Part shown: piece after piece, positions 14,765 through 43,397 of the stretch | How positions within the stretch are numbered: position 1 is the first letter of the stretch | Layout of the letters: every line of letters starts with the position of its first letter | NCBI GenBank assembly: GCA_024399575.1 | Contig: JAKSNT010000003.1 | Location: 1 to 53,169 of the forward strand | Direction: 5' to 3' | Source: Paludibacteraceae bacterium | GTDB taxonomy: Bacteria; Bacteroidota; Bacteroidia; Bacteroidales; Paludibacteraceae | Length of the DNA stretch: 53,169 nucleotides | Made by a program: the position numbers and the translations under genes | Notes under the pieces: generated by a model | The model's input: the letters and a program-made list of their open reading frames with translations, nothing else | Databases searched by the model: none | What the model was told of the DNA's origin: nothing

Positions 14765-14790
14765 TGCGATATGATTTTTTTTTCAGTCTG

Positions 14791-14820
14791 CAAAGTTACA
14801 AAAAAATTTTCATATAGCAA
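14791..14820 (-). promoter_or_regulatory. promoter of the 3589-aa protein gene
   Basis: Minus-strand TAACTTTG (plus CAAAGTTA, 14791-14798), 19-base spacer, TTG (plus CAA, 14818-14820). The transcript would begin about 20 bases upstream of the ATG at 14764. Confidence 0.75.
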
Positions 14821-14852
14821 TTCTTTTTTTATTGGAAAATACCTACATATAA

Positions 14853-14885
14853 AACAGGCTACACCTTATAATGATGCAGCCTGTT
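14853..14885 (-). terminator. hairpin after the 1410-aa protein gene
   Basis: AACAGGCT (14853-14860) pairs with AGCCTGTT (14878-14885). It begins 23 bases after the stop of the leftward gene, and the minus strand continues into a TTTTATATG stretch. Confidence 0.65.
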
Positions 14886-14908
14886 AAATAATATCAAACT
14901 ATTGTCTG

Positions 14909-17900: not shown

Positions 17901-19141
17901 TTTGCGTATGTGGTGTGGTTGATGTTGCTTGATTCAATCAGTGTCATGCTGTTGTGATCAGCCACTGTGCCATATACAAAGTTAATGCGATACGACATAT
18001 CACCGTATGCAGCATCATTCATCTTTGCATATACAGAAACCTCATAGTTTTTGCCTGCCTCCAGATGGGTGCTGCGATAAAGAGCAATTGAGCCGCCTGA
18101 AATCGAACCTGCGGATGTCGAAGGAACACTGTATGCTGCCGAGAAGAATTTGTCGCCAGAATATGCTTGGGCTGCATTTTCAACATAGACTGCATAGACG
18201 GTCGAGTATTGACCTACGCAATCTTCGCCATCATAGCATTCGCCTACAGCACCTGATGTGAGGCCGTCGAATGTTTCAAGGAAATCAGAAGTGCTGAGGT
18301 CGATTGCAGGGCAAAGTGTGTACATTGTCTTAGATATTGTATTGTCGCCATACTCCGAACCGCATTTGCGACGGGCAACTATCTCGTAATAAGTGGAAGC
18401 CTGCAGACCTGTCAACTGTATTGTCAGTGAAGATGCTGTGTTTTCAACGAAAGTGTAATCATTTTCTGAGCCTGAAACACGGTATCCTGCTTCCCAACTT
18501 GTGGCGGTTGCATCAGCGATAGTCACATTCATTGAGTTCATGCCTACGTTCGAGATTGTCACTGCACCAGCGATGTCTGGGCAAGAAGGCACTTTGCGGA
18601 GCAAAATGTCATCAACATAGCAGCCACCGCCACCGTCGCTCTCGTAACAGAACACAATGTAAGGGTTTGTTGTACCTAATGGCAGAGCGAATGAATATTG
18701 ATACCATCCTGCTCCTGCCTCTGCGGGCGCATTCTCATAATACGGAGCAATTGTTCCGAGAAGTGCTGCACTTGTAACGTCATTTGCAGTTGACGAAGAA
18801 TAAACCTTCAGGCATTCTGTCTTTGTTGAATACCAGGAAGAATTGTTACGGTACATCCAGAATTTCACCTCGTAAGCTGTATCAGCACTGATAGCTAACT
18901 GTGGTGTGGTGAGGTACTGGAATGAACCTGCTGCTGCCCAGGCAATTGTAGCAGATGCTGGCGCCGAATGTGACTGACCTGTACTCCTATTCCAATTTGT
19001 GGTGTTAGAAGAAGCCTGCGTCCATCCCGTTGGAGGGAACGTGGCATCCGAAAAATCTTCGGTCAACGGGAGATAGATCTGTCCGCTGACAGTTGCAATG
19101 CAGCACAAGATTGCTGCAAGGAGTGTGAATTTTTTTCTCAT
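14909..19141 (-). CDS. modular T9SS cargo protein, shorter paralogue (1410 aa)
   Basis: The start is taken at ATG 19141, which gives a clean Sec signal (MRKKFTLLAAILCCIATVSGQ) and sits about 20 bases downstream of the predicted transcription start; an upstream in-frame ATG at 19198 would lie inside the promoter. Five anchor-J modules (LPLTEDFSD, SDFLETFDG, IPFREDFEG, LPFVEDFED, VPFIEDFES) alternate with FnIII-like domains; several share the LEAGKTYEI(A/S)VY strand. The tail has only two of the seven Cys-rich repeats seen in the large paralogues, matching their first and last units, then a type A T9SS sorting domain (PNPINGGEVAYVYG ... LGQVISTF ... GLYYVRL ... KLIVK). Surface or secreted adhesin-like protein; ligand unknown. 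Confidence 0.87.
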   Translation of the reverse strand: MRKKFTLLAAILCCIATVSGQIYLPLTEDFSDATFPPTGWTQASSNTTNWNRSTGQSHSAPASATIAWAAAGSFQYLTTPQLAISADTAYEVKFWMYRNNSSWYSTKTECLKVYSSSTANDVTSAALLGTIAPYYENAPAEAGAGWYQYSFALPLGTTNPYIVFCYESDGGGGCYVDDILLRKVPSCPDIAGAVTISNVGMNSMNVTIADATATSWEAGYRVSGSENDYTFVENTASSLTIQLTGLQASTYYEIVARRKCGSEYGDNTISKTMYTLCPAIDLSTSDFLETFDGLTSGAVGECYDGEDCVGQYSTVYAVYVENAAQAYSGDKFFSAAYSVPSTSAGSISGGSIALYRSTHLEAGKNYEVSVYAKMNDAAYGDMSYRINFVYGTVADHNSMTLIESSNINHTTYAKKAVYFQVPTTGDYYLGFYTDQPTNGSYYVYADNFAARELTIIPPTGISAVPTSRSANFTFTNVSPKAELFVDTVEADVMLGRIATVAELTGTTASVTGLEPNTKYYYAMRAINGNDTSVLSVTSSFITMVEPDTIPFREDFEGYTADEWTGAEWATKASGGSYKFKVLAGEAYNHTAEGNQGVTVLSSGTSPYTMPYQQAFCRNVVLEAGKTYQMSVYTYRYQNVSYDIEFVAGTTMDNLAAQWETVRMTNNDWTKVIGYVTVPQDGEYYIGFRSYNNETNYLPIYDDIEFKEVACTSPSLINVQNIGANNAEIHFTTTYPATEIVVDTVKADVFQGRIYSNDNVTASPVALTGLTPNTAYYYALRTINGTDTSDWSMIGEFRTTCVPVDELPFVEDFEDMPVGLLGGCYTFSAANDRTLNVFESADCNHTEGGNKGLATATDGSSSGTSSTNSSMTFSRSFELEAGKTYEIAVYSKCSYASALYNIDFMVDNDVVGTTLVDNMEWTRQRTYFTVDADDVYTISIQASPTGSNYVTYYFDDITIREVTCITPDVVVMTEKDTAASVMFTTGAGIYEVVYDVLPIDFSDMLGALYHDTVITDGTFAISNLDESTEYHFAARLVCGEEDMSDWSEEITFKTACAPHAVPFIEDFESYESATPLPECMNAFPATGSELPYVYADDACNNTTGGSKGLICYNIYESFMIPSITSAAFGFSDFVSFEAGKAYEISIYAKKSNSDYNLAFAVSGNRNYEAATPLNVDSVKSSEFTKYTAYYLAEQTEGMYVHVFAPKSSSYRGIIFDDYAIRTLTTFVANDTMCREEENYLGYGFNVNVNELQNGDNVLERESGDTLYHINLYLDPADSTFETYELKQGETYIWNGQTINAAGTYEAVCHTRNGCEYIATLTVSVVSGIENVAERVITLAPNPINGGEVAYVYGNIEDVKSVEVLNNLGQVISTFEPTASPIVVEGINMPGLYYVRLITNDGTSMIQKLIVK

Positions 19142-19654: not shown

Positions 19655-19857
19655 CTGAAAGAACTGAAAGATTCTTTCAGTGTTGGTATGTCTTGCTATC
19701 GTATATTACGACCTGTCAGCAGACCAAGATACGTGAGGTGTTTTTTGCGACCACGAGGAGGTTGCAAAATTTTCCTCCCCGAGGAAAATTTTGCAGGGTC
19801 ACGAGAACTATAGTCCATCCGGATTTCAAAGGTTGCGGTTTCTTTCAGTTCTTTCAG
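19655..19857. repeat. 17-bp inverted repeats bracketing ~170 bp at the hsdR 3' end
   Basis: CTGAAAGAACTGAAAGA at 19655-19671 is the exact reverse complement of TCTTTCAGTTCTTTCAG at 19841-19857. The right arm contains the hsdR stop codon (TGA at 19856-19854 on the minus strand). The interior has no ORF but carries the perfect hairpin at 19763-19795. The layout resembles a small non-autonomous element with terminal inverted repeats, but no target duplication was identified. Confidence 0.6.
19763..19795. repeat. perfect 15-bp stem hairpin
   Basis: TGCAAAATTTTCCTC (19763-19777), CCC loop, GAGGAAAATTTTGCA (19781-19795). It could end transcription of the hsd operon or be the core of a repeated element. 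The stem is unusually long and perfect for a simple terminator, and no long T-run follows on the minus strand. Confidence 0.75.
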
Positions 19858-22800
19858 TTTACGATACTTTCTAATGTCGTTACAAATGGGAGATATCTGA
19901 TTTCACCCCGTCGCTGAGTCTTTAAGATATTTACATCACCTAAATCTGCTGATTGTTGGGGATTATAATCCAACAACAGATACTTTACGGCATCCTTATC
20001 CATTCGGATTAGGTATTCTGATGGAACAGCATCCTTATCAACCAATACCGGTTCTCCGGTCAACAGATAGGCCTTAGGATTACTCCAATAATGAAACATT
20101 AAGTATTTAATGCTCTTGTATGCTGCCATCTGTTCGCCCTTCAACATATCTTCTTTTATACCCAAAGCGATTTTGCCTGCAGACTCCGTCTTCTGGCGTG
20201 CGCCACTTCCAATGGCGTACATCAGAACCAAATCCAAGTTGCCATTAGTCAACTCATTGCGGCTCGTATTAGGCAGGTCAACAGGAATGCTGCCATAGAT
20301 GAAGATGTCTTCAGCTGCCATCATTTGATTTGCGTCTTCTTCTATTGGAGAATAAAGCGAAAGGTCTGCTTTTGACGAATTTCTTTCGATATAATCATTT
20401 TGTTCGTTCTCCTTGAAATTCTCTACCTGCTCCATTACTTCGCGGAACACTTCTGGAGTATATTGTGGAGGATAGCCATTCTTGACAAGGCAAATCTTGA
20501 TGTCCTGTTTCAACTGGTCACGAACCCGCTGGTTGTTGAGCCAATCAGCAAATGAAGACTTTGCATCTATGATATCTCTAATCTTGCAAGCAAGGCTCTT
20601 ACACTTATCATTGATAACAACACCATCCGCCTCTTTGTCTTCTCCGTATTCGAAGTTGTTTTTGTCTCTTAGATGAATTAAGATATCATAAAACGCTTTC
20701 TCTTCAAAAGTAAGTCCTAACTTACGGAAACTCTCTCGGTCTGCTTGCATACCTTTGAGAATGTTTAGAGCCTGCTCTGTGGCATTCTTGATGATACTTT
20801 CCGCTGTTGCTTCCTGAGTAGCGCCAGCTTCTTGCTCAGATAAGAATTTGCGCCTGTCGTGGTACTCTTGAATGGTGGCCTCCAGCATTTCCTGAAATTT
20901 CTTTGATGCTACCTGATTGGTCTTACCATATTCCGTGATTTGTTTACGAAGAAGTTTTATCAGCGTTTCCAACTTTGAAGCTGGCATCTTGATGTCTTCA
21001 AGCCTTTCCGTGAATTCTGGTCCGAAGATATCCATTTCTTCACCTTCTTCAAGAATGCTCTCCACATTATTGTACTTCAAAGCTTCCTCCACCATCTTTG
21101 CCACCCGCCGATTCATGGTATCGGTATCAGGAGCGTCAGTTCCATTCATCTTATATACCATACCTGCAATAGCCATGAAGCATTGTGCCAATGCCGACTC
21201 CTCCTCGCTGAGTTCTCCCGAAGGCTGACAAAGATCGTAGGCCTTTCGCATTCTCTTCACATTTTGTAGGAAATAGGTCTTGAAGGAAACTTTCTTGGTT
21301 TTCTTTCCATCCTTGTTGACAGAGTTGAAACTTTCGTTAGAAAAGAAAACAAAATCTGCTGCTTTTGCCAACAGGGTGTATCTTGTTGCAGGGTCTGTCT
21401 CCGGATTCAGGAATGGTGTCAAATCATAATTTCTGAACAAAGCCTTCAATATCTCCATGTATTCACGGAAGATGAGAGCAGCCTGTTCAATGTCATCTTC
21501 GGTTAATGCAACAGAATTGTCGCCACCATACATCTTCCTGGCTTCCAACATCTGGTCACGAATGCCGATATAGTCAACTATCAAGCCATACTCCTTGCCA
21601 GGGAATTTTCGGTTGGCACGGCTAATGGTCTGTATCAACGAATGCTTCTGCAACGGCTTATCGTTATACATGTAGGTAAGACACTCCACATCAAAGCCTG
21701 TTATCCACATATCCACTACAATGACGATTCGGAAATTGGAATGTACCTGTTTGAAAGCAGCATCCAAGTCTTCCGACCGTTGATCGTTCTTAACGCCTCC
21801 AAGATAATTGTACATGTCTGCCGCATCATTGCTTCCCACGCTGGCCACCATGGCGATAGTAGGCATTTCCTTCAGCTTTTTAAATTCTTCCGACGAAACA
21901 TTGACACCTTCCGGCGTTTTCCGTTCATCAAACCATTCAGGATAATGTGCCTTGAACTTCAACAATAGGTCGTATGCAATCTTTCTGTTTGAGCAAACTA
22001 TCATTGCTTTCTGTACTCTGTCCGGGTCATTGGCAACGGAAGATACATAGTGGTCATGTATATCAACTGCAAGTTTTTCCAGACGGTCGGGCTCGCCAAG
22101 AATCATCTCTAATGAACTCATGGCCTTCTTGCTCTTTGCAATATCTTCTTTGGTCGAGCCTTCATCAGCGCACTTGGCATAATATGCCTCAATCTCTTTC
22201 GCTTTCTCCTGATTCAGCAGTACTTTGGCTATGCGTGGATGATACTTGATAGGCACAGTAATCTTGTCCGCCACTGCCTGATCCATCGTGTAGCGGTCTA
22301 TCTCGTCGCCGAAGGTCTGATAGGTTTCTGCAATAGGTGTTCCTGTAAAGCCAACGAATGTTGCATTTGGCAAGGCTTCACGCAGCACTTTAGCGTATGG
22401 TTTTGATATCATGGCCCGCATATTCTCGTCAGCATCCTCACTGAACTGAATGCGCTTTGAGCCTTCAATTTGCGTGCGATGTGCTTCGTCGCTGAAACAG
22501 ATAATGTTGCTACGCTCATTGATGAGACCTATCGGGTCGTCCTTCCTGTCGCAGAATTTCTGGATAGTGCAGATGAAGAAACCGCCACTGTCACGAAGTG
22601 AAAGTTCCTGACGCAGTATTTTTCTGCTTGGTACGACCGAGACCTCACCCAAGCCCAGAAACTCAGTACTCTTGGTAAAGAGTTTTGCTCCCTGCTTCTG
22701 AAGGTCTTCACGGTCAACAATCATCAGTATCGTAGGTGAACCGAATTTTGCGGCACAACGCAACGAGAGTTGACGGGCAAGGAATGCCATCGTATAGGTT

Positions 22801-23741
22801 TTTCCGCAACCAGTGGCACCAAAGTATGTTCCACCTTTACCGCTTTTTGTCTTAACCGATTTGATGACACTCTCCCTAAGCAGTCGTGTAGCAAAGAATT
22901 GCGGATAACGGCATACAATTTCCTTTTCATCGCTGTCAAAGTTCTCATCTTGGAAATACACATAGTCTCTGAATATCTCCAAAAACCTTTCTGGGCGATA
23001 AACACCTCTCACCATTGTCTCCAACTCATCGAAAGGCATAGTGCTTATCTTGTCGCCATTCTCTACACGTCGCCAAGCATAGAAGTGTTCATAAGGTGTG
23101 CGCACTGTTCCCAATCGTGTCTTCACGCCGTCGCTGATGCAAGCCAGCGGGCAGTAGTGCAGCAGGCTTGGAATATCTCGCCAATAGCGAATATTGATTT
23201 GTTCCCAGGCATCTTCAATCGTGGCATTGGCATCAGCAGGATTCTTCAGTTCTATCACGCAGACGGGGATTCCGTTTACATATAGTAGTACATCAGGACG
23301 GCGGTTCTTTGTCACACCGTTGTTGATGTATTCCACAGTGAACTGATTGACTACGCGGAAGATATTTGTATTCTCTTTTTGTGGATTGTCTAAGCAACCG
23401 AAGTCTATCAAGTTGATAGTCGTTGGCCTTCCGTCTTTATCAACGGCGGTCACACCATTCACTATCCACCTATAGACTTTATGTAATGTGGCAAAATCAG
23501 AATCAGCCCCCACCAGCCTGACGTTATCTGCTATTCTTTGCAGTTCCTCGTCCTTCACATCCTTATTGTTATCTTTCAAGAACTGAAGCAGGTCGTCCAT
23601 ATAAAGCACTTCCTTTCTGTTGGCTCTAAGAATAGAGTCGCCAAATAGGTATTGCCATCCTTCTCGTTCAAGGAAAGCAATGAGAGCGTTCTCGTAATCA
23701 CTCTCCACAAAGTACCCGTTGATGTTCTTTAATTTTGCCAT
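19854..23741 (-). CDS. hsdR: type I restriction endonuclease subunit R
   Basis: 1295 aa, ATG at 23741. The motor and nuclease subunit of a type I restriction system: it cleaves DNA after ATP-driven translocation when the recognition sites are unmethylated. The N-terminal PDDEXK nuclease is visible (RPD at 148-150, ELK at 164-166). Superfamily 2 helicase motifs follow: Walker A GATGCGKT (308-315), SDEAHR (417-422), GFTGTP, and a late VVDMWITGFDVE block. The C-terminal region is the usual helical HsdM-binding part. Full length. It is the last gene of the hsd cluster, 8 bases after the DUF1016 gene. Its first 53 bases are repeated (47 identical) at the start of that upstream gene. Its stop codon lies within a 17-bp inverted repeat arm. 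Confidence 0.95.
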   Translation of the reverse strand: MAKLKNINGYFVESDYENALIAFLEREGWQYLFGDSILRANRKEVLYMDDLLQFLKDNNKDVKDEELQRIADNVRLVGADSDFATLHKVYRWIVNGVTAVDKDGRPTTINLIDFGCLDNPQKENTNIFRVVNQFTVEYINNGVTKNRRPDVLLYVNGIPVCVIELKNPADANATIEDAWEQINIRYWRDIPSLLHYCPLACISDGVKTRLGTVRTPYEHFYAWRRVENGDKISTMPFDELETMVRGVYRPERFLEIFRDYVYFQDENFDSDEKEIVCRYPQFFATRLLRESVIKSVKTKSGKGGTYFGATGCGKTYTMAFLARQLSLRCAAKFGSPTILMIVDREDLQKQGAKLFTKSTEFLGLGEVSVVPSRKILRQELSLRDSGGFFICTIQKFCDRKDDPIGLINERSNIICFSDEAHRTQIEGSKRIQFSEDADENMRAMISKPYAKVLREALPNATFVGFTGTPIAETYQTFGDEIDRYTMDQAVADKITVPIKYHPRIAKVLLNQEKAKEIEAYYAKCADEGSTKEDIAKSKKAMSSLEMILGEPDRLEKLAVDIHDHYVSSVANDPDRVQKAMIVCSNRKIAYDLLLKFKAHYPEWFDERKTPEGVNVSSEEFKKLKEMPTIAMVASVGSNDAADMYNYLGGVKNDQRSEDLDAAFKQVHSNFRIVIVVDMWITGFDVECLTYMYNDKPLQKHSLIQTISRANRKFPGKEYGLIVDYIGIRDQMLEARKMYGGDNSVALTEDDIEQAALIFREYMEILKALFRNYDLTPFLNPETDPATRYTLLAKAADFVFFSNESFNSVNKDGKKTKKVSFKTYFLQNVKRMRKAYDLCQPSGELSEEESALAQCFMAIAGMVYKMNGTDAPDTDTMNRRVAKMVEEALKYNNVESILEEGEEMDIFGPEFTERLEDIKMPASKLETLIKLLRKQITEYGKTNQVASKKFQEMLEATIQEYHDRRKFLSEQEAGATQEATAESIIKNATEQALNILKGMQADRESFRKLGLTFEEKAFYDILIHLRDKNNFEYGEDKEADGVVINDKCKSLACKIRDIIDAKSSFADWLNNQRVRDQLKQDIKICLVKNGYPPQYTPEVFREVMEQVENFKENEQNDYIERNSSKADLSLYSPIEEDANQMMAAEDIFIYGSIPVDLPNTSRNELTNGNLDLVLMYAIGSGARQKTESAGKIALGIKEDMLKGEQMAAYKSIKYLMFHYWSNPKAYLLTGEPVLVDKDAVPSEYLIRMDKDAVKYLLLDYNPQQSADLGDVNILKTQRRGEIRYLPFVTTLESIVN
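23689..23741 (-). repeat. direct repeat copy 1: start of hsdR
   Basis: 53 bases that match 24768-24820 at 47 positions, in the same orientation and the same reading frame. They encode MAKLKNINGYFVESDYEN here and MAKYKNINWHFVENDYEK in the other copy. Confidence 0.85.
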
Positions 23742-23749
23742 AATGCCGA

Positions 23750-24820
23750 TTATTTTTCTTCTTCAAACTCGTAAATATCACGTAGTTTTTGTTGCAGCAG
23801 TGCCTTGTCTGGCAAGTGCAGACGATATTCAGCCACCATAGTGGGTGAAAGGCTTCGACTAAGAGCATATTCTACGACTTCGTCATCTTTATCTTTGCAG
23901 AGCAACACTCCAATACTGGGATTCTCATGCGGTTTCTTTATGTCTCTGTCAAGTGCTTCAAGGTAGAAATTCAGTTGTCCAAGGTGCTCTGGCTTGAACT
24001 TGCCCATTTTAAGTTCAAATGCCACTAAACATTGCAATGCCCTATGATAGAACAGTAAATCAATACGAAAATCGCTGTTACCTACTTGCAGACGATATTC
24101 CTCGTCAACAAATAAGAAATCTTTTCCCAGTTCCAGTACAAAATGTTTCATCTGCCTTATCAGGGCTTTTTTCATTGTGCTTTCGCTTTTATAGTCTTTA
24201 CTGCCAAGAAACTCCAGCACATATTGGTCACGAAACACTTGCTCTGCCTGTGGGGCAATTTGTCTCAACACTGTTGAGAGTTTTGGACCAGAAACTTTTG
24301 TACGTTCATACAGTGCCACATCAAATTGTCTGTTCAATTCACGTGCAGAAAGTCTTTCATTCTTGCACAACATTAGGTAGAACAAACGCTCTTCCTCGGT
24401 TTTTGCTCGGCTCATAATTGTGAGATTGTTTGACCAACTAATTTCTCTCAACAGTGTTGAGTGTCTTTCATCAGTATTGCAATAAGTCTCATAAAATTGC
24501 TTCATACGCCAAAGATTCTTGTCGGAGAACCCCCTTGTATCGGGACTATTTTTCTCTATGTAGGCTGCCAACTGTTTTACCACGCCATCGCCCCATTCCG
24601 AAACGGCTATTTTATTTGATATGTACTTACCCACTTGCCAATAAAGATCTATAAGGGCTGTATTTGCCATGCTTATCACAGTGGACTTTGTACGCCGAAT
24701 CAGTGAGACAATCTCTGCGAACTGGTTGTCTCTATTTTGTATAATGCTCTTGTTTTCACTCATCTTTTTCTCGTAATCGTTCTCCACAAAGTGCCAGTTG
24801 ATGTTCTTATATTTTGCCAT
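23750..24820 (-). CDS. DUF1016/YhcG-family PDDEXK nuclease, copy 1
   Basis: 356 aa from ATG 24820; an internal ATG at 24763 (MSENKSIIQNRDNQF) may be the ancestral start. The N-terminal helical DUF1016 domain (residues ~30-190) includes YWQVGKYI, W-G-x-G-V-V-K-Q-L and FSDKNLWRMKQFY. The C-terminal PDDEXK-type nuclease has FRIDLLFYH (Asp254) and AFELKMG (Glu269, Lys271), then QLNFYLEALD. YhcG-type proteins are often found inside type I restriction loci; their role there is unproven. Residues 1-18 copy the start of HsdR, so the gene looks fused to an hsdR 5' end. It lies between gajB (28-base gap) and hsdR (8-base gap). It is clearly divergent from the second DUF1016 gene at 28704. Confidence 0.88.
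   Translation of the reverse strand: MAKYKNINWHFVENDYEKKMSENKSIIQNRDNQFAEIVSLIRRTKSTVISMANTALIDLYWQVGKYISNKIAVSEWGDGVVKQLAAYIEKNSPDTRGFSDKNLWRMKQFYETYCNTDERHSTLLREISWSNNLTIMSRAKTEEERLFYLMLCKNERLSARELNRQFDVALYERTKVSGPKLSTVLRQIAPQAEQVFRDQYVLEFLGSKDYKSESTMKKALIRQMKHFVLELGKDFLFVDEEYRLQVGNSDFRIDLLFYHRALQCLVAFELKMGKFKPEHLGQLNFYLEALDRDIKKPHENPSIGVLLCKDKDDEVVEYALSRSLSPTMVAEYRLHLPDKALLQQKLRDIYEFEEEK
24768..24820 (-). repeat. direct repeat copy 2: start of the DUF1016 gene
   Basis: See 23689-23741. After the repeat the two proteins become unrelated: HsdR continues ALIAFLERE, the DUF1016 protein KMSENKS. The homology is therefore limited to the first 53 bases. Confidence 0.85.
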
Positions 24821-24848
24821 AGATTTTTACTTAATAATAAAATCAATT

Positions 24849-25973
24849 CTACATAGATGGATTCCAAAAATTAATATCTGTTGCTGAACATGTTTCCTTT
24901 GTCCATACAATACCAACTAGGTAACGTGCTCGTGTTACTGCAACATAAAATTTATTTCTAGATGTTTCCTCTAAACTTTCATTATGATTTTCAATCCACT
25001 TTATCATTGGTTGAGTTGGATAAATCAAAACAGAGTCAAAAGTCATACCCTTTGAATCACCAAAATTCATGACGGCATGATTAGAGTCAATTTTCTTGGT
25101 TAAAATACTATGTCTCAATTGAACACTATCATTGTAATGGGATAAAAAATCTGTTTTATTATTATCCTTGACAAGATAAACTCCACATAATTTATTCTGA
25201 TAATCCGTCAATGATGTGGTTTTGTTGAATACAGGTGTTATGACCGAAGCATACTCGCATATTTCTGGACAGCAACGCCGAGAACTATTCAGCGTATTTG
25301 CGTCAACCTGATATTTGCCCCTTAGCTCTTTTTGTTTCGACAAGTAATCTAATATCTTCCCATTTCGAAAACTTATATTCTTGTTTCCATTATGATTTGT
25401 AAGATATATTGTTTGTCGAGGATCACCTGCTAAAATTACGTTACTTTTTGAAAGAAAAAATAATTTAATCAAATCCAGGTCGTAACCTGCAAAATCCTGT
25501 ACTTCGTCTATATAAATATTTTCAAATATATCACAAAGCCTTTGAATTGACTTTCCGCTAGATTTTTTATTGCAATCATAAGCCAATTCACTAAGTTTTT
25601 CTGTTAACGCTTTTTGATGTTTGGTGAAATAATACTTTTCCCATTTTGCTTTTGGAATTCTATACGCTTTCTTACTTTTTTTGTCAGTACTTTGTACCAT
25701 AGCAAGTCCCTTTATAGCAAAATTGTCATCAGTAAGATAATTTTGATAAGGTTTTATTAAATGCTGGACTAAAAAAGAAAACCATGATTGGATAACAACA
25801 TTTTGTGGAATATATCCTTTCTCTTGATAGAACTTGTTTCTTATTTCTTTTTCATTTGAATCCGTATAAGTCAAAATAAGGACATACTCAGATGAAGATA
25901 AAGCACAAGCTTTCTTCACTAAAGTGGTAGTTTTTCCTGAACCAGCAGCAGCTATATATACCAAATTATTCAT
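24849..25973 (-). CDS. gajB: Gabija protein GajB (UvrD-like helicase)
   Basis: 374 aa from ATG 25973, which forms an ATGA overlap with the gajA stop; this was chosen over an upstream non-ATG start at 25985. Superfamily 1 (UvrD/Rep) motifs are in order: Walker A AAGSGKTT (9-17), LTYTDSNEKEIR (motif Ia), Walker B IDEVQD (155-160), GDPRQTIY (183-190), SSRRCCPEI, a KGMTFDSV block and VAVTRAR (344-350). GajB is the partner that is thought to sense DNA ends or nucleotide changes and activate GajA. It is shorter than the ~494 aa of the well-studied Bacillus cereus GajB, mostly between motifs, but no key motif is lost. Its base composition is AT-rich compared with hsdM or the nqr genes, consistent with acquisition. 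Confidence 0.85.
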   Translation of the reverse strand: MNNLVYIAAAGSGKTTTLVKKACALSSSEYVLILTYTDSNEKEIRNKFYQEKGYIPQNVVIQSWFSFLVQHLIKPYQNYLTDDNFAIKGLAMVQSTDKKSKKAYRIPKAKWEKYYFTKHQKALTEKLSELAYDCNKKSSGKSIQRLCDIFENIYIDEVQDFAGYDLDLIKLFFLSKSNVILAGDPRQTIYLTNHNGNKNISFRNGKILDYLSKQKELRGKYQVDANTLNSSRRCCPEICEYASVITPVFNKTTSLTDYQNKLCGVYLVKDNNKTDFLSHYNDSVQLRHSILTKKIDSNHAVMNFGDSKGMTFDSVLIYPTQPMIKWIENHNESLEETSRNKFYVAVTRARYLVGIVWTKETCSATDINFWNPSM

Positions 25974-27583
25974 TGTACAATCCAATCTATACTGTCATTT
26001 ATGTACTGAGGAAAAGAAAAATCATTCTCTTCTGAAAATACTCTATATGCCCATTCAGATTTGCAGGTTTGCATATAATCGGAAATGGCTTTTTGACCAT
26101 TGTAATTGAGGAACTTTTTTAACTTCTCTTCATCATTGCATGCGACAAAACTAGGCTCTAATGTATATTGATTGTTGTCATTATTAGAGAAAATACCAAT
26201 ATTGTCCTTTCCTGTAAAATCTTTATATCTAACAGTTATATTGTTCTTATAATCGCCATCATTATCTGTAACAATAGCAATTCTTATTGGCAAATCTCCT
26301 GCTAATTGTAAGAATCTCTTAGCCTGTACTCCTTTTACAGAAATAACATCAATATTATCTTGAATAGGCAAGTGACCATTATGCTTTTTCATGTAAGCTT
26401 TTTGAACAATAAGTTCATCCGACGGTCCCTCAACCAATATTGCTTTGTCGGAAAGTATTAACCGCAAAGTCTCAAACCCTGCTAATTTTCTAAAGTACGT
26501 TTGAGTACCTTCATCAACAGCCTTAAAATAGTAGGGCTTTCTTTTACTTAAAAAAATTAAATTCCCAAGTCCTAGTTTATTAGCGACGAAACTACTGTGT
26601 GTTGTAATAATAATCTGCCTATCCTTGTTGCTTTCCTCTATAGATTTTAAAAGAGAATTTAGATTAGTATGAGCAAGATGGTTTTCTGGTTCCTCAATTA
26701 ATACAACATTGCAAATATCTTCACGAATATTGGATAGGGCAAGATTCGTTTTTATTATACTTTGTTCACCTTGTCCAATCTGCGTAAACGGAATCTCATC
26801 AAAATAGGTCATAAGAATATTCTCCCATGCGTTCATTTCCGTAGTATTTACAGATATAGATACATTTTTCCCTGATATGGTCGAATCTTTTGCAATCTTT
26901 TCATTTATAGCAGTTAAGTTATTTCCACTTTTAAAAGTCTCTTTGAGGTCTCTAAAAGCCTGCATAAGAGAAATTTGCTCGGATTTATCCAATCTGTTGC
27001 TGATTATTTTGGAAATATAATAATCACTTCCATTCTTATATTTTGTTCCAGAGGAATCAATTACATTGGGTTTTATGGGAATAGAACGAGATGTAATTTC
27101 TTGGTCGGCAAAGCTTTTCCATTCTATACGATAATACTCAATTGGCACATTTTGATTACTATTTACTTGTTTAAAAGCAGCATACTCATCACTGTAATTC
27201 TCATCAAACATTATTCCCAATTTGATGCCAAAGGTGTCTTGTTTTTTTGAATTACGAGATCCTTTAAGGTTTGCATATACCTTGTTTGATTCATTGGAAT
27301 CAGTTGCGTCGAGATAGACCTCAATCAAAATGTGTGGTGGAATCCCATTTGTATTTTGCCTATATTTTTCAACAGCGTCCTTATTGAAGGAGCATTCATT
27401 CAGCTCATTTTTGATGTATCTTCCGTTAACTAAGCCTGATAGACATAGATTTAAGGCTTCAAGTATAGTACTCTTGCCAGCCTCATTATTTCCCACGATA
27501 ATATTTGTTGAATTATTGAATTCAACATCTACATTTTCATAGCATTTATAATTCTCTATATGTAATGACTTTATATATATCAT
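25970..27583 (-). CDS. gajA: Gabija protein GajA (OLD-family ATPase/TOPRIM nuclease)
   Basis: 537 aa, ATG at 27583, 15 bases after the hsdS stop. An ABC-type ATPase domain comes first: Walker A GNNEAGKST (31-39), signature QGEQS (271-275), Walker B VVLIEEPENHL (293-303), switch His in TTHSS (327-331). A TOPRIM nuclease domain follows: ILVEGPSDE (Glu385), VTDNDGD (Asp440, Asp442, Asp444) and a later TLEPS (Glu476). This is the layout of OLD nucleases. With a UvrD-like helicase translated from an ATGA overlap immediately after it, it forms a Gabija anti-phage system: GajA nicks DNA when nucleotide pools fall, and GajB assists. All expected catalytic residues are present. It is inserted between hsdS and the second DUF1016 gene of a type I system. 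Confidence 0.88.
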   Translation of the reverse strand: MIYIKSLHIENYKCYENVDVEFNNSTNIIVGNNEAGKSTILEALNLCLSGLVNGRYIKNELNECSFNKDAVEKYRQNTNGIPPHILIEVYLDATDSNESNKVYANLKGSRNSKKQDTFGIKLGIMFDENYSDEYAAFKQVNSNQNVPIEYYRIEWKSFADQEITSRSIPIKPNVIDSSGTKYKNGSDYYISKIISNRLDKSEQISLMQAFRDLKETFKSGNNLTAINEKIAKDSTISGKNVSISVNTTEMNAWENILMTYFDEIPFTQIGQGEQSIIKTNLALSNIREDICNVVLIEEPENHLAHTNLNSLLKSIEESNKDRQIIITTHSSFVANKLGLGNLIFLSKRKPYYFKAVDEGTQTYFRKLAGFETLRLILSDKAILVEGPSDELIVQKAYMKKHNGHLPIQDNIDVISVKGVQAKRFLQLAGDLPIRIAIVTDNDGDYKNNITVRYKDFTGKDNIGIFSNNDNNQYTLEPSFVACNDEEKLKKFLNYNGQKAISDYMQTCKSEWAYRVFSEENDFSFPQYINDSIDWIVQ

Positions 27584-27598
27584 ATTGCTTCTTCCTTA

Positions 27599-28717
27599 TT
27601 ATTCTGTTAAACTTCCCCGTATCAAGACGGGGCATATATTTTTGAGTTGTTCTTTGAGCGCTTCGGCTATGCGTTGGCGCTCGATATAACACTTATGTAT
27701 GTTGACTATCTCACGTTGAACAGAGATGTCGGGGATTGGGATTGCCACATCGTTCATATCATCCATAGTAAATACTTCTCTTGCACTTCCCCACGAATTG
27801 AAACGTGCATAGCGGTCGAATTCTGGACGGTCGAAGAACATAAATAGGTATTCGGGCAAAAGCCTTGAAGTGTCTTTGCTCTTGAAAGTAGTATATATGG
27901 AAGATACCAATAATGGGTCTACGCCACGATTCAAAGCAATAGCCATCTTGTCTCCTCTCCTTGAAGTGTCAGGAACATATACAAAAGTGTTTGATTCTAC
28001 AACTTTGTAGGACGTAAGACTGACACCATTTATGTCTGCTTGGGTATCAATAAAGGATTTCTCTGTTGATATTCCTTTAACACTATTCAACTTCAATTGA
28101 TTATCCGAATTCCTCTTATCGTATTGTTCAATGAACTCTCCAATTTTCAATTTTTCATTCTCTGCCTTCAATTTATCCAAGTACCCATCGCAGACAAGTT
28201 TCAATTCTTCCACTTTGCTTTGATAGGCAGCAAGATTGTTTTGGAGAGCCAAATAAACATCAACGTATTTTCGCTGCTGCTCGATGGATGGGAGCGTAAG
28301 TTCCATATCACAAAGAGCATCCCAGGAAAACACTTCTGTAGAACTGCCCCAAGAACAGAAACAAGCTTCACGATCCCATTCTTCTCTATTGAAATGTAAG
28401 AAAAGATATGTTGGGATGACAATATTTAGGGCATCAGCTTTAACTCGAAATGCGATGTTATTCCAACTGATGAGGAAACTCTCCTTGGTATTGTTGAATC
28501 CAAAACCTATCTTCTTACCATGTGTTCGTGGATTGAAGACAAAATTGTCAGGATGAACAACTAAAAATTTTCGTAAGTCAGTATTTGCCACGTCTGCCTT
28601 TGTAGGAATGATTTCTTTTGTGATGGTCATTCCTCGGACATCATTTGGCCCATACTTCCCCTGAGAATTGGTTTCTTCAACCAATTCTATCAGTTCTCCC
28701 AATTTATACTTCTTCAT
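27599..28717 (-). CDS. hsdS: type I restriction system specificity subunit S
   Basis: About 372 aa from ATG 28717 (MKKYKLGELIEL); an ATG two codons upstream (28723) is equally possible. Longer upstream frames would lie deep in the DUF1016 gene. It has two homologous target-recognition domains, each ending in the same pattern: FCSWGSSTEVFSWDALCDME with LPSIEQQRKYV in the first, and FNSWGSAREVFTMDDMNDVA with IPDISVQREIV in the second. Each is followed by a coiled-coil spacer. It determines the DNA sequence recognised by the HsdM and HsdR complexes. The target cannot be predicted. It overlaps the upstream DUF1016 gene by 14 bases. Only one hsdS copy is present and no invertible half-genes or recombinase are visible nearby. 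Confidence 0.92.
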   Translation of the reverse strand: MKKYKLGELIELVEETNSQGKYGPNDVRGMTITKEIIPTKADVANTDLRKFLVVHPDNFVFNPRTHGKKIGFGFNNTKESFLISWNNIAFRVKADALNIVIPTYLFLHFNREEWDREACFCSWGSSTEVFSWDALCDMELTLPSIEQQRKYVDVYLALQNNLAAYQSKVEELKLVCDGYLDKLKAENEKLKIGEFIEQYDKRNSDNQLKLNSVKGISTEKSFIDTQADINGVSLTSYKVVESNTFVYVPDTSRRGDKMAIALNRGVDPLLVSSIYTTFKSKDTSRLLPEYLFMFFDRPEFDRYARFNSWGSAREVFTMDDMNDVAIPIPDISVQREIVNIHKCYIERQRIAEALKEQLKNICPVLIRGSLTE

Positions 28718-29876
28718 CGTCATGCTTTTTCGTATTTTCCAATTCAGCAATAGTGCGTTCGACAACTTCTTGCAACTGATAAGAAGCAACGCCCAGTGGC
28801 TTTTGAATATCTTGCAACGACCATTCAACAATGGTTTTGTCTGTAGATTTGCATATAAGCAAGCCTACAGAAGGATTATCCCCTTCACCGCGCAACAACT
28901 TATCTGCTGCCGTAACATAGAAATTGAGCTTTCCTGCAAACTCAGGGATAAACTTAACAGCTTTCAGTTCTACAACAACATATCTGTGCTGAGGGATATG
29001 ATAGAACACCAAATCAGGGAAAAACGTCTGTCCTCCAGGCATCTGCAATTCCATTTGCCGTCCCACGTAAGAGAATCCACGTCCCAATTCAAGTAGAAAA
29101 CTTGTGATATTATTGGCTAAAGCATTCTCTAAGTCCTTTTCTTTCTTAACCTCCTCTACTGTAACGAAACTCAAATCGTATTCTTTCTTCAACAATTCCT
29201 TAGCCGATTCGCTTTGAGATATTGGTAAGGTCGTATCGAAATTGGTAATAGCTGAGCCTTGTGTTTCATAGAGGTGAATATCCATCTGATGCTCCAAAAA
29301 AGCACGACTCCAACCTTCTGATATGACTTTGCCTATATAGAAAAGTGCCTCGTCAATAGATTGGGCTTTAGAAATTATAATGACATGATGAAACCAAGGT
29401 ACTTGACCAAAAATACCAGGCATCTCTAATGGGTCAGCAGGCTGCTGACTTTTTAATTCTCTGAATAAAAGGTCACCGACTTGGTGGCTAATTTGGTCAA
29501 CGGGTCGTTGACTTTTTGCATCACATTCATTGTAAAACAGATACCAACGCTTCATGTATTTTACATTGGTAAGAGAAAAACCTGACATATCAGGAAAAGC
29601 CTGCTGCATATCGAGAGCAAACTGTTTCACAACACCAGCACCCCAACGTTCTTCAGCTCGTAAGGCCACTAAATCCCTGCCAATGCTCCAATAGAACTCA
29701 AGCATTGTCGTATTCACACGAATAGATGCTTTTATCTGACTTTGGCGAAAACGCGCTTTAACATCTGTCAGCCATTCTACATACTCTTTGTCGGCTGTCA
29801 TACTGTCACGATATACAAACGATGGCTTTTCTGCGTTTTTGCTCTCTTTCACATACTTTTCCTTATTCGATTCCAT
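28704..29876 (-). CDS. DUF1016/YhcG-family PDDEXK nuclease, copy 2
   Basis: 390 aa from ATG 29876 (MESNKEKYVKES), overlapping hsdM by 14 bases; the longer frame would begin with a TTG. The N-terminal DUF1016 helical domain has FYWSIGRDLV, W-G-A-G-V-V-K-Q-F and FSLTNVKYMKRWY. The nuclease domain has FFPDLVFYH (Asp288) and VVVELKAVKF (Glu303, Lys305), then GKLNFYVTAAD. The active site appears intact. It is only distantly similar to copy 1 (23750), so the two are old paralogues or independently acquired, not a recent duplication. Lying between hsdM and hsdS and translationally coupled to both, it is probably made together with the methyltransferase. Confidence 0.88.
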   Translation of the reverse strand: MESNKEKYVKESKNAEKPSFVYRDSMTADKEYVEWLTDVKARFRQSQIKASIRVNTTMLEFYWSIGRDLVALRAEERWGAGVVKQFALDMQQAFPDMSGFSLTNVKYMKRWYLFYNECDAKSQRPVDQISHQVGDLLFRELKSQQPADPLEMPGIFGQVPWFHHVIIISKAQSIDEALFYIGKVISEGWSRAFLEHQMDIHLYETQGSAITNFDTTLPISQSESAKELLKKEYDLSFVTVEEVKKEKDLENALANNITSFLLELGRGFSYVGRQMELQMPGGQTFFPDLVFYHIPQHRYVVVELKAVKFIPEFAGKLNFYVTAADKLLRGEGDNPSVGLLICKSTDKTIVEWSLQDIQKPLGVASYQLQEVVERTIAELENTKKHDDEEV

Positions 29877-31467
29877 AGCCAATTCCCTTAAACGCCTCTT
29901 CGAGCATCTTTTGTGATTCCTTTTCGCGCAACATCAACTCTTTCATCTCCTGCTGAATACGAGCCATTTCCTTAGAATAATCTATATCCAAATCGTGGTC
30001 AATGAACTCAATATACTTGCTTGGTACCAATGTCCAGTTGTTGGCTTCAATTTCGTTGCATCCTACACTTCGATATAACTCTGGCTTTGCAAAGTTGTTG
30101 CCGTCTGTTCCCTCTGACTGCCACTGATGATAGATGTCTGCAACACGCTGAATCTGTTCCGTGATGAGCCGAACTTTCTTCTTCTGTTCACCTTTGACTG
30201 CGTTTTCTGTCCATTGGCGCAAGTCCATAAATAGTATTTCTTTTTCACGGTTACGAAGTTCACGTCCATGATAGCGACCACCTTTCTTATTCTGGTTGAG
30301 AATCCAGAAGGTAACACTGATATCCGTCGTTATGAACAATTCCCTCGGCAAAATAATGATAGCTTCCACTTTATCTTTCTCTATCAATTTCCGTCGGATT
30401 TCAAGGGCATCGGTGTCACCTAAGGCTCCGTTAGCGAGCAGGAATCCTGCCACTCCCGAGAGAGGCTTCAAATGAGAAAGCATATGAAGAATCCATGCAT
30501 AGTTAGCATTACTCTCTGGAGGTGTGGCATAATCCGTCCATCGTAAATCATTCTTCAGGTTGTCATTATACCAGCCTTTCAAATTAAAAGGTGGGTTTGC
30601 CATTATATAGTCAAAGTAAATACCTTTGTGCAGGTCATTGGTGAACGTGGAATCGCTTTCCGAGCCCAGATTATGACTGATGCCGCGCAAGGCAAGGTTC
30701 ATCTTTGCCAAACGGTAAGTTGCCGCTTCTTTCTCCTGGCCATACACATTGATACAGCTGATGTCACCTTGTTTGGCTTTTACTAAATCTGTACTCTGAA
30801 TGAACATACCGCCAGAACCACAACAAGGGTCGTAAAGAGTTCCATCAAAAGGCTCGATTACCGAAGCAATAAGTTGTACAACATCGTGAGGCGTGTAAAA
30901 CTCACCTTCCTCTTTTGTGGCATTAACGGCAAATTCCTTCAGGAAATACTCATATACACGACCTATCAGGTCTTTCTCTTCGCCAAAAGTCTTATGGCTA
31001 ATTTTGTTGACCTCATCCACAATCTTCTTCATGTCGTTGGCTCCAAGATTGCGCTGAGTAAATGTACCCTCCACGAAACAGCCTTTCAGCGTCGGGTTCG
31101 TTTCCCCAATACTGCGCAATGCTGTATCGAGTGCAACATTTAGTTGTGGTGCTGCCGTATTGATGATAGTTGACCAACGAGCCTCTACAGGCAAGTCGAA
31201 AGTTCCATCGGCAAAAGTAGCATCATCGAAGAAAGCCTTGCGTATTTCCTCGTTCTCGGGATCTAATCCTTGTTCAATGAGAGTTTGACGCAATGCTTCC
31301 ACTCCATCCTCGTATTTCTCTCCAATAAAACGCAGGAATACAAGTGTCAGCATCATATCCCTCTTCTCAAAGAACGACCCTGAATTCTTTGCTTGTCTCA
31401 GGATATCCCTACACTTGAAAAGTATATTGTCAAGATTTAGAGTTTCTTCTTTTACTTTCTTTGCCAT
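29863..31467 (-). CDS. hsdM: type I restriction system methyltransferase subunit M
   Basis: 534 aa from ATG 31467 (MAKKVKEETLNLDN); a TTG nine bases upstream extends the frame but is less likely. The N-terminal helical HsdM domain (FLRFIGEKYEDG, residues ~43-55) is followed by an N6-adenine methyltransferase with SAM-binding motif DPCCGSGGMF (213-222) and catalytic NPPF (291-294), preceded by EGEFYTPHDVV. It methylates adenine in the site read by HsdS and forms the core of the restriction complex. First gene of the defence operon. The nearest promoter-like sequence is 290 bases upstream (31759-31789). Confidence 0.94.
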   Translation of the reverse strand: MAKKVKEETLNLDNILFKCRDILRQAKNSGSFFEKRDMMLTLVFLRFIGEKYEDGVEALRQTLIEQGLDPENEEIRKAFFDDATFADGTFDLPVEARWSTIINTAAPQLNVALDTALRSIGETNPTLKGCFVEGTFTQRNLGANDMKKIVDEVNKISHKTFGEEKDLIGRVYEYFLKEFAVNATKEEGEFYTPHDVVQLIASVIEPFDGTLYDPCCGSGGMFIQSTDLVKAKQGDISCINVYGQEKEAATYRLAKMNLALRGISHNLGSESDSTFTNDLHKGIYFDYIMANPPFNLKGWYNDNLKNDLRWTDYATPPESNANYAWILHMLSHLKPLSGVAGFLLANGALGDTDALEIRRKLIEKDKVEAIIILPRELFITTDISVTFWILNQNKKGGRYHGRELRNREKEILFMDLRQWTENAVKGEQKKKVRLITEQIQRVADIYHQWQSEGTDGNNFAKPELYRSVGCNEIEANNWTLVPSKYIEFIDHDLDIDYSKEMARIQQEMKELMLREKESQKMLEEAFKGIGYGIE

Positions 31468-31546: not shown

Positions 31547-31723
31547 TCATTTGTTGCCCCGCAGTGCGGTTTTATCTTTTAACTTGATATTCCCCGTCTC
31601 CGAAATCCCTTCCAGCGGCAGTTCAGGCAATTCGCCACCTTCCTGCTGCATTTTCTCGAGGTCGCTGCGGAAGAGGCGGTCTTGAATAAATAAACGACTA
31701 AATAATAAATCTGTCAGCCCCTT
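31547..31723 (-). pseudogene. C-terminal fragment of an unidentified gene
   Basis: A 58-codon open frame with no start codon, reading ...LTDLLFSRLFIQDRLF RSDLEK, then a Glu/Pro-rich ELPELPLEG segment and ...KLKDKTALRGNK before TGA at 31547. An in-frame TAA lies just upstream (31724-31726). The regular helix and the Pro-rich tail look like the end of a real protein, and the promoter at 31759 sits just ahead. I do not recognise the family. Likely a leftover at the left flank of the hsd locus. Confidence 0.35.
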
Positions 31724-31758: not shown

Positions 31759-31789
31759 CAAAGTTAGATATAATTTTTGAATTGGACAA
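31759..31789 (-). promoter_or_regulatory. Bacteroidetes-type promoter ahead of the hsd/Gabija operon
   Basis: Minus-strand TAACTTTG (plus CAAAGTTA, 31759-31766), 20-base spacer, TTG (plus CAA, 31787-31789). It is the best candidate for transcribing hsdM and all downstream genes, with a leader that crosses the gene fragment. Confidence 0.6.
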
Positions 31790-32190
31790 ATGTCTCTGAA
31801 AGTTATTTTGAAAGCTGCTGAAGGATTAGATGCAACACAGAAAAATGAGTAAAGAGTTTTTTAGCTCAATTCGCTGGATTATTGCCATTTAAATAAAAAA
31901 AATCATCACTTTCACCCTTCAGTATTTCGTTTGTGCATTTTCAATGAAAAACAGTCATATTTAGTTAATGAGATACAACTAATTACAAATAAACGTAACA
32001 AATCGAAGAAAACAGTCCAAAAACAGGAAAACAAACAAAATTCGTCAATGCGCCACCCAAAGCCACCCATTTATTGTATGTAACTCACTGCTTTACATTC
32101 TGCACTATGTGATGACGCAAAAAAAGTGATGAAGTCAGGAAGAAGACGTATAAAGATGCATACATACACGAAATTATTCACCTGGAAAGA
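31790..32190. other. gene-free stretch
   Basis: About 400 AT-rich bases without a convincing ORF, RNA gene or repeat. It separates the hsd promoter from the terminator of the third giant adhesin gene. Confidence 0.5.
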
Positions 32191-32232
32191 AAACAGAGGG
32201 TGCGCCAATTCTGCTTGACGCACCCTCTGTTT
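32191..32232 (-). terminator. terminator after the 3231-aa protein gene
   Basis: AAACAGAGGGTGCG (32191-32204) and CGCACCCTCTGTTT (32219-32232) form a perfect 14-bp stem with a 14-base loop. It begins 16 bases after the stop, and the minus strand continues TTTTCTTTCC. Confidence 0.85.
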
Positions 32233-32248
32233 TAATATCGAAACAATA

Positions 32249-42113: not shown

Positions 42114-43382
42114 TTATTTTCCCCCGAAGTTATCGTACATTATCGACTGCTCGTCAACACCGAGCGAATCGAGCATCTTGACAACTGCAGCCGACATAGG
42201 ACCAGGACCGCACATATAGTACTCGATATCCTCTGGAGCCTCGTGGTCTTTCAGATAGGTATCGTACATTACGTTATGCACAAATCCGGCAGTATATTTC
42301 ACCCCAGCGGCATCTGCAGCAGGGTCTGGACGGTCCAAAGCAAGATGGAAATGGAAGTTTGGATACTCCTTCTCTATGCCGAGGAAGTCCTCCAAATAGA
42401 ACACCTCGTTCAGAGCCCTTGCGCCATAGAAATAGTGCATCTCGCGGTCTGTAGTATGCAGTGTCTTGGTCATGTGCATGATCTGAGCCCTCAGTGGAGC
42501 CATACCTGCACCTCCGCCGACCCATATCATCTCGTTCTTTGTATCGAAATGTGGATGGAAATCGCCATAAGGTCCGCTCATCAGCACCTTGTCGCCTGGC
42601 TTGAGCGAGAATATATACGAAGACGCAATACCTGGATTTACGTCCATGAAACCACTGCGGTCTGGTTTGAACGGTGGTGTTGCAATACGGACCGTCAGCA
42701 TGAATACATTGCCCTCGGCTGGATAGTTAGCCATTGAATATGCACGGATTGTAGGCTCCGTGTTGACACAGCGGAGGTTGAACATTCCGAACTTTTCCCA
42801 TGCGCCAAGGTATTCGTCAGTGATGAGTTCCTTGTCGTATTGCGAGTAACTGATGTCGAATGTAGGAATCTTGATCTGCGCATACGATCCTGGCAGGAAG
42901 TCCATCTTTGCACCCTCAGGCAACTGAACCTTGAACTCCTTGATGAATGTTGCCACATTCTTGTTGGAAATCACGGTGCACTCGTACTCCTTCACTCCGA
43001 GCACCGACTCTGGAACCTGCATCTGTATGTCGTTCTTCACTTTCACCTGACAGCCGAGACGCCAATGGTCCTTGACCTGTTTTCTGGTGAAATGCACTGT
43101 CTCGGTAGGCAATATCTCGCCACCGCCATCAATGACCTGGCATTTGCATTGCCCGCACGAACCCTTTCCGCCACAAGCCGATGGCAGGAAAGTACCGGCA
43201 TTAGCCATAGTGCTGAGCAACGACCCTCCGGCAGGGACGGTCATCTGTTTGTCGCCATTGAGCGTTATCGTGACATCACCCGATGCCACAAGGAATCGCT
43301 TTGCTATCAGCAGTATTACGACAAGCAGCAAAATCACTGCGAGGAACACTGCAAGACTGATTATGATTGCTGTACTGTTCAT
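42114..43382 (-). CDS. nqrF: Na+-translocating NADH:quinone reductase subunit F
   Basis: 422 aa. The electron-entry subunit that oxidises NADH. One N-terminal membrane helix (residues 5-30); a plant-type 2Fe-2S domain with ligands Cys70, Cys76, Cys79 and Cys111 (CGGKGSCGQC ... RLGC); an FAD domain with RAYSMANYP; and an NAD-binding domain with GGGAGMAPLR, YYMCGPGPM and the C-terminal DNFGGK. All cofactor motifs are intact and the length is typical. Last gene of the operon, 15 bases after nqrE, and followed by the terminator. Confidence 0.96.
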   Translation of the reverse strand: MNSTAIIISLAVFLAVILLLVVILLIAKRFLVASGDVTITLNGDKQMTVPAGGSLLSTMANAGTFLPSACGGKGSCGQCKCQVIDGGGEILPTETVHFTRKQVKDHWRLGCQVKVKNDIQMQVPESVLGVKEYECTVISNKNVATFIKEFKVQLPEGAKMDFLPGSYAQIKIPTFDISYSQYDKELITDEYLGAWEKFGMFNLRCVNTEPTIRAYSMANYPAEGNVFMLTVRIATPPFKPDRSGFMDVNPGIASSYIFSLKPGDKVLMSGPYGDFHPHFDTKNEMIWVGGGAGMAPLRAQIMHMTKTLHTTDREMHYFYGARALNEVFYLEDFLGIEKEYPNFHFHLALDRPDPAADAAGVKYTAGFVHNVMYDTYLKDHEAPEDIEYYMCGPGPMSAAVVKMLDSLGVDEQSIMYDNFGGK

Positions 43383-43397
43383 CTCTTTCTATGCTCC

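Follow-up and report, generated by a model that had tools for sequence, protein, structure and literature searches.

The type I restriction operon described here carries accessory defence genes in two slots; one of these genes most likely came in at the start of hsdR, and the modules of the operon are likely to act as independent layers of defence. The operon lies on the minus strand of a 53,169-nucleotide stretch of DNA (the whole of which is referred to as the window; contig JAKSNT010000003.1, assembly GCA_024399575.1) from a Paludibacteraceae bacterium of the phylum Bacteroidota, the source genome being a draft of 1.66 Mb that is 86% complete. The gene order is hsdM, DUF1016a, hsdS, gajA, gajB, DUF1016b and hsdR. 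The slot between hsdM and hsdS (M-S slot) holds a DUF1016 nuclease, and that between hsdS and hsdR (S-R slot) a short Gabija pair (gajAB) followed by a later DUF1016 nuclease beside hsdR. That defence systems can be embedded in restriction operons is already known; the question is the route by which the genes enter. A first-pass annotation, made from the sequence alone, had recognized the seven genes but overlooked that DUF1016b opens with a 54-base-pair (bp) copy of the start of hsdR.

Copies of the hsdR start at cargo boundaries

From one base before its ATG, DUF1016b matches the start of hsdR at 89% identity over 54 bp, the two copies lying 1079 bp apart, and the alignment of the DUF1016b protein to the PADLOC DUF1016 profile PDLC04831 begins at residue 20. 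In L033, a locus from a Bacteroidales draft genome that is the nearest operon found, HsdR is 91% identical to that of the window, DUF1016b is absent and hsdR follows 25 bp after gajB. The repeat and the absence of the gene from L033 are both observed; most likely DUF1016b was inserted at the start of hsdR, which was duplicated in the process by a route that we infer below, and now begins with hsdR-like codons.

The same signature recurs in other operons. When the first 60 residues of each HsdR were compared with the 8 kilobases (kb) upstream of its own gene (tblastn, E<=1e-3), fragments of the hsdR start were found at 10 of 80 loci and at 2 of 20 further loci (12/100 overall), against 0/480 and 1/120 (1/600) for control searches with six internal hsdR segments per locus. 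The 80 loci include the window, L033, L034 and L039, all four being loci found through GajA, of which the window and L039 score; without these four the count is 10/96. Seven of the 12 fragments are strong (E<1e-5; window, L159, L174, L179, L184, L205 and L246) and five are weak, with E values in the 1e-4 range and lengths down to 15 residues (L039, L166, L171, L175 and L242). A further candidate, L225, was removed from the count as a positional artefact of the stretch, which gave a self-match in every segment tested. At the DNA level 3 of 46 loci (window, L159 and L174) carried a partial copy of the first 150 bp of hsdR, and control searches with nine other hsdR segments gave two matches in 414 tests, both of them short.

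The fragments also sit in a particular place. In eight loci the distance from the stop codon of the upstream cargo gene to the fragment is 0-29 bp; L166 and L174 show overlaps with that gene of 6 and 16 bp, respectively, and in L171 and L175 the fragment begins about 124 bp beyond it. L171/L175 and L179/L184 are near-duplicate pairs, and the 12 loci therefore represent about ten events. Two hsdR-start fragments occur in a stack between successive cargo genes of L246 (5571-6726). The S-R slot contained a copy of the hsdS end in 1 of 62 loci. The position of the fragments, their specificity for the hsdR start and their association with cargo boundaries are shown, and the scar is demonstrated within the phylum of the window only; none of 12 plasmid loci had an hsdR-start fragment, a number too small to say much at this rate. 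Among the open-licence papers searched, none combined Gabija, type I restriction and DUF1016, and a duplicated hsdR start was mentioned in none of the listed titles and abstract beginnings, which does not establish its absence from print.

The S-R slot as a site for cargo

A phylum-wide search with HsdR gave matches in 102 of 395 genomes, and 80 stretches chosen from the list were fetched. An hsdS gene was present upstream of hsdR in 73 of the 80, with at least 200 bp between the two genes in 62 and less in 11; among the other seven, the stretch ended too early in five and no hsdS was seen in two. In one of the 62 (L217) the sole sizeable open reading frame (ORF) in the slot is itself hsdR-like. 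The first-pass annotation was therefore right that accessory genes may stand between hsdS and hsdR, as they do here and in most sampled loci, but the nesting that it had presented as exceptional is the rule for type I operons in this phylum. On plasmids, too, annotated genes lie between hsdS and hsdR in 10 of 12 loci (chosen for variety among the 50 of 208 records listed), 11 of the 12 being from other phyla.

The cargo is diverse and consists mostly of defence genes. Clustering of the 130 cargo proteins with a length of 120 amino acids (aa) or more gave 82 clusters, and 24 of 27 different cargo proteins that were scanned gave a match (three gave none; thresholds 1e-5 and 1e-20). The families comprise GmrSD, RhuM, Schlafen AlbA_2, Shedu, SIR2, AbiEii, McrBC, TIR, NYN, PDDEXK_3, M78 and DUF1828/1829, together with OLD- or AriA-like ATPases, HerA, helicase and AAA proteins, and candidate defence families. 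An apparent Gabija in L163 was rejected, as the OLD-like ATPase there precedes a GmrSD protein and not GajB. Where both operons of a pair contained cargo, a cargo homologue was shared by 9 of 15 pairs with HsdR identity of at least 90%, 2 of 14 pairs at 80-90%, 4 of 77 at 70-80% and 6 of 100 at 60-70%, although the pairs are not independent.

Identity of the seven genes

The assignment to type I follows from the presence of hsdM, hsdS and hsdR in one operon with methyltransferase, translocase and PD-(D/E)XK motifs intact. HsdM matches N6_Mtase (296.7 bits), HsdS matches Methylase_S in Pfam (35.7 bits) and Specificity_I in PADLOC (415.5 bits), and HsdR contains HSDR_N, SWI2_SNF2 and T1RH-like_C domains with PD..ELK, Walker A and DEAH motifs, scoring 425.6 bits with TIGR00348, which is above the cut-off. 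At 1295 aa, HsdR is longer than its counterparts in L033 (1153) and L034 (1112), and it has a C-terminal extension of about 180 residues; the L034 protein stops before this region and the L033 protein has a different short tail. The extension matched no NCBIfam family, and across 101 genomes it gave only the window's own match and one weak partial match.

Both DUF1016 proteins contain DUF1016_N and YhcG_C domains, with a PD..ELK site in DUF1016a and an ID..ELK site in DUF1016b. Because a DUF1016 gene holds the M-S place in L033, L233, L235 and L236 also, DUF1016a looks like an older companion of the operon. The M-S slot thus accepts cargo too, as with DUF1016a: in the plasmid loci L259, L260, L262 and L264 it holds genes with Fic, nucleotidyltransferase/HEPN-type or VapC annotations.

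GajA (537 aa) and GajB (378 aa) belong to a short, divergent form of Gabija, matching the short subfamilies PDLC00102 (631 bits) and PDLC00148 (383 bits) of PADLOC, respectively. GajA contains Walker A and B motifs and the TOPRIM residues E385, D440/D442, E476 and K508. In an alignment of 28 GajA sequences K37, E297, H329, E385, D440, D442, E476 and K508 are invariant, and the SF1 motifs of GajB are conserved over 28 aligned sequences. The gene order is that of Gabija, with gajB directly following gajA. Searches of the Protein Data Bank (PDB) with GajA and GajB (phmmer) or with a nine-row GajA profile listed no chain under the name Gabija or GajA, and neither protein reached the cut-off of any NCBIfam model, so the name rests on the PADLOC models, the gene order and the motifs. 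These support the proposal of the first-pass annotation that a complete Gabija-type pair is present inside the operon, and the catalytic motifs that it had listed (NPPF in HsdM, Walker and TOPRIM in GajA, SF1 in GajB, PDDEXK and DEAH in HsdR, D..ExK in both DUF1016 proteins) are all retained.

The association of gajAB with restriction operons

Short GajA is rare among relatives of the source genome, with 4 of 395 genomes of the phylum matching at E<=1e-40, the source genome included. A control with PDLC00078, another GajA model, was set aside, as the 4 of 395 genomes found at 1e-30 (three of them the known short form) were too few. Elsewhere the family is widespread: GajA matched 1715 plasmid records at E<=1e-20, at about 27% identity for most rows sampled across the ranking, and at least 80 loci in species genomes.

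A neighbour screen of 80 species-genome loci, made with few local models such that its counts are lower bounds, and a Pfam scan of 40 chosen neighbour proteins, some from loci outside the 80, identified operonic restriction genes at 10 or more of the 80. In L033, L034 and L039 gajAB lies between hsdS and hsdR, and type I genes also accompany it at L087 (R-M-S-A-B, in single-letter gene order) and L099 (R-A-B, at a contig end). The type III context is represented by L043, with gajAB between mod and res (8076-17981), and L044, with gajAB after a res-like gene; the type IIG context by L054; and type IV-like contexts by L045 (GmrSD) and L093 (DUF2357-PDDEXK_7). L089 was not counted, its M-S-R genes being followed by another ORF and a 408-bp gap ahead of gajA. 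Outside the 80 loci, L029 and L030 are linked to type IIG genes, and in the viral-collection contig L127 (5081-12750) gajAB directly follows mod and res, with small overlaps. AbiE-type genes were seen after gajAB in two of these operons, AbiEi in the IIG operon L029 (5215-13779; L030 has genes of like size) and DUF6088 and AbiEii in the type I operon L039 (10004-14658). None of four plasmid relatives of gajAB that were opened lies inside a restriction operon. The survey widens the settings of short Gabija to include restriction operons of types I, III and IIG and of a type IV-like kind, with the pair either inside or next to them, and also sites away from such operons.

No second example of the exact seven-gene order was found among the loci examined. 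The arrangement is nonetheless not confined to this genome in its main part, as L033 has six of the seven genes in order, lacking DUF1016b, and gajAB stands between hsdS and hsdR in L034 and L039 as well. Relative to the window, identities of HsdM, GajA, GajB, HsdR and HsdS are 91, 89, 84, 91 and 48% in L033; 70, 66, 61, 69 and 45% in L034 (Spirochaetaceae); and 47, 49, 41, 40 and 38% in L039. A search of 393 genomes of the order with HsdR gave 20 with a match at 1e-200, its own included. One of these relatives (L233, genome G509) is 80% identical in HsdR and has the order M-DUF1016-S-R, its operon lacking gajAB (no search for gajAB was made elsewhere in G509). Thus gajAB does not always accompany this type I lineage, and obligate coupling of Gabija and type I restriction was dropped on this ground. 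A GajA tree with 115 rows groups the window with L033 and L034 in a single clade (SH-aLRT 100); on it the type I label must change four times against the other labelled rows, and well-supported branches force three of these changes. An HsdR tree with 81 rows requires two changes for the four rows that bear gajAB, both forced. As an HsdR relative at 80% lacks operonic gajAB, and short Gabija occurs elsewhere, alone or with other restriction types, the tie between Gabija and type I is loose.

Operon layout and surroundings

Domain matches and spacings confirm seven genes in one direction on the minus strand (Table 1). With the likely starts, hsdM and DUF1016a overlap by 14 bp, DUF1016a and hsdS by 14-20 bp and gajA and gajB by 4 bp, and gaps of 15, 28 and 8 bp separate hsdS from gajA, gajB from DUF1016b and DUF1016b from hsdR, respectively. 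We take TTTG-N18-22-TANNTTTG to be the Bacteroidota-type promoter consensus. On the operon strand this pattern has a single match ahead of the operon and no further one from there to the end of hsdR, and the only match within the operon (30596-30628) is on the opposite strand; the whole window contains 8 matches compared with 1.03 expected in shuffles. Transcription from a single promoter is hence plausible, and order, spacing and the one promoter match together suggest that all seven genes are probably expressed as one predicted transcript. A sigma-70 scan of the window was uninformative (39 promoter-like sites versus 34.4 expected), and the hairpin listed in Table 1 was not among the terminators given by the sigma-70/terminator scan.

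Guanine plus cytosine content is 32.5% in gajA and 31.6% in gajB, compared with 43.2% in hsdM and 44.1% in hsdR. Between the promoter match and hsdM is a 58-codon open remnant (31550-31723) that resembles the end of a lost gene and had no match among the other sequences fetched. ORFs of 3589 codons (3995-14764) and 3231 codons (32249-41944) flank the region, and a sodium-pumping NADH dehydrogenase (Nqr) gene cluster occupies 42114-48051, with no defence island on that side.

Table 1. Features of the operon and its immediate surroundings in the window.
Feature	Position	Strand	Basis
Promoter-like site TTTG-N20-TAACTTTG, upstream of hsdM	31759..31790	-	Match to promoter consensus
hsdM, N6-adenine methyltransferase subunit	29863..31467	-	Domain and motif matches
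DUF1016a, YhcG-type PDDEXK nuclease, M-S slot	28704..29876	-	Domains and motifs; equivalent place in L033, L233, L235, L236
hsdS, specificity subunit	27599..28723 (start 28717 or 28723)	-	Profile matches
gajA, short form, OLD-type ATPase and TOPRIM nuclease	25970..27583	-	Profile, alignment, motifs
gajB, short form, UvrD-like SF1 helicase	24849..25973	-	Profile, alignment, motifs
hsdR-start copy, 54 bp, 89%, front of DUF1016b	24768..24821	-	Repeat comparison
DUF1016b, second DUF1016 nuclease, cargo adjoining hsdR	23750..24820	-	Domains and motifs; L033 without DUF1016b
hsdR start matching the copy (reference copy of repeat)	23689..23742	-	Repeat comparison
hsdR, restriction and translocation subunit	19854..23741	-	Domains and motifs
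HsdR C-terminal extension, about 180 residues	19857..20393	-	No family match
Hairpin after preceding gene (32249-41944), probable terminator, outside operon	32190..32233	-	Position and T-rich tail

Discussion

We propose that defence genes enter the operon at the start of hsdR and duplicate it. Incoming DNA carrying cargo and an hsdR start would join the resident hsdR start, for example through one crossover with a circular molecule, so that the cargo would come to lie between direct repeats and acquire the old start, as in DUF1016b. In a variant of this route whole cargo-hsdR segments would be exchanged, which fits fossils that share only about 50% identity with the hsdR of their own locus (L179 and L184). 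Tentatively, the process may be more general, the hsdR start codon being a fixed landing site at which each arrival duplicates the first 15-60 codons, with the fossil remaining upstream and the working hsdR downstream, such that the operon is a general collector of defence genes. If this were true, fossils would order the arrivals, the two stacked fossils of L246 would show repeated rounds, and recombination could release cassettes cleanly, restoring hsdR; the operon would then compare with the integrons that gather resistance cassettes, by another route. The scar would help to explain the strong variability of the S-R slot, and the duplicated hsdR start offers a simple DNA signature, which any genome can be screened for and which predicts excision circles and empty sites.

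It might be proposed that the hsdR-start fragments, instead of being scars, are small elements with a use of their own, such as leader peptides or mini-proteins that couple translation of cargo and hsdR. L179 and L184 would suit this proposal, as their fragment is an open 79-aa ORF that has 4-bp overlaps with both neighbours and retains 49-51% identity to the HsdR start. The fragments of L039 and L242, however, are 15 residues long, that of L159 stops after a short stretch and that of the window is fused to the next gene; short, frame-shifting or fused fragments of this kind make a general function improbable. Even less probable is that the region is a chance neighbourhood, a defence island in which order has no meaning. 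The full seven-gene order was seen once and the cargo is diverse, but L033 repeats the order for six of the seven genes, L034 and L039 also have gajAB in the S-R slot, and the tight spacing with one promoter match argues against random assembly.

With respect to function, HsdMSR is predicted to cut unmethylated foreign DNA, and GajAB, by analogy with Pseudomonas Gabija, would attack linear DNA that host end-processing enzymes do not protect. The Pseudomonas system targets linear DNA that RecBCD does not handle (PMC12407980, preprint), and GajAB could therefore use HsdR-generated ends as substrates. One could envisage, along lines suggested by the first-pass annotation, an integrated machine in which HsdR breaks unmethylated DNA, GajAB recognizes the ends and the DUF1016 proteins link the two, each module being poor when apart. 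Such a machine would accommodate the joint divergence of HsdM, GajA, GajB and HsdR, the retention of gajAB at 68% HsdR identity across two phyla, the recurrence of the short pair in or beside restriction operons of several types and the action of Gabija on linear DNA ends (PMC12407980). It is unlikely, however, given an HsdR relative at 80% without gajAB in its operon, the finding of operonic restriction genes at just 10 of 80 GajA loci (a lower bound) and the high exchangeability of other cargo. Interdependence of Gabija and type I restriction is likewise not supported, in view of L233, the four plasmid relatives outside restriction operons and embedded TgvAB, which gives similar protection when the HsdR nuclease is mutated (PMC11411939). 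Feeding of GajAB by HsdR-made ends is possible by analogy, but it is unsupported and nothing that we found requires it.

It should be stressed that several observations weigh against independent layers or against the proposed entry of DUF1016b. The best-scoring profile for DUF1016b, PDLC04795, aligns residue 14 of the protein to profile position 10, and the foreign part may thus be shorter than 19 residues. HsdM, GajA, GajB and HsdR diverge in step across the window, L033, L034 and L039, which looks like what joint inheritance or coupling would give, although these loci were discovered through GajA. The window-L034 and L033-L034 pairs are two of the six that share cargo at 60-70% HsdR identity, and gajAB therefore appears to be kept longer than most cargo. 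Finally, tgvAB alone is 10- to 100-fold less protective than the whole cluster (PMC11411939). The in-step divergence and the weaker protection by tgvAB alone are in favour of some link between the modules. Independent layers within a type I operon that receives genes at the hsdR start remain the most likely reading of the sequences and of the analogous systems.

The window can be compared with several known systems. With Gabija it shares an adjacent pair of genes for an OLD-type ATPase/TOPRIM protein and a UvrD-like helicase, with conserved motifs, and differs in that the pair is of a short, divergent subfamily and lies inside a restriction operon. Payne et al. in 2024 reportedly described embedded candidate defence systems, that is, defence genes inside other defence operons. 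The window conforms to this description, as foreign defence genes lie between hsdM/hsdS and hsdR on one strand with tight spacing, and it resembles such candidates also in that PADLOC labels both DUF1016 genes PDC-S02, the PDC names being derived from the embedded-candidate approach (PMC12988326). TgvAB of Vibrio pathogenicity island 2 is, similarly, a two-gene defence system inside a type I operon, but it is a GmrSD-type modification-dependent enzyme, not Gabija, and works without HsdR cutting (PMC11411939). DarTG2 of the RptR island in an enteropathogenic Escherichia coli differs in being a toxin-antitoxin pair, and the available part of its report describes no hsdR-start copy; like the window, however, it is a separate defence system in the S-R slot with one promoter, and its authors regard the hsdS-hsdR site as a potential recombination hotspot (PMC12255303).

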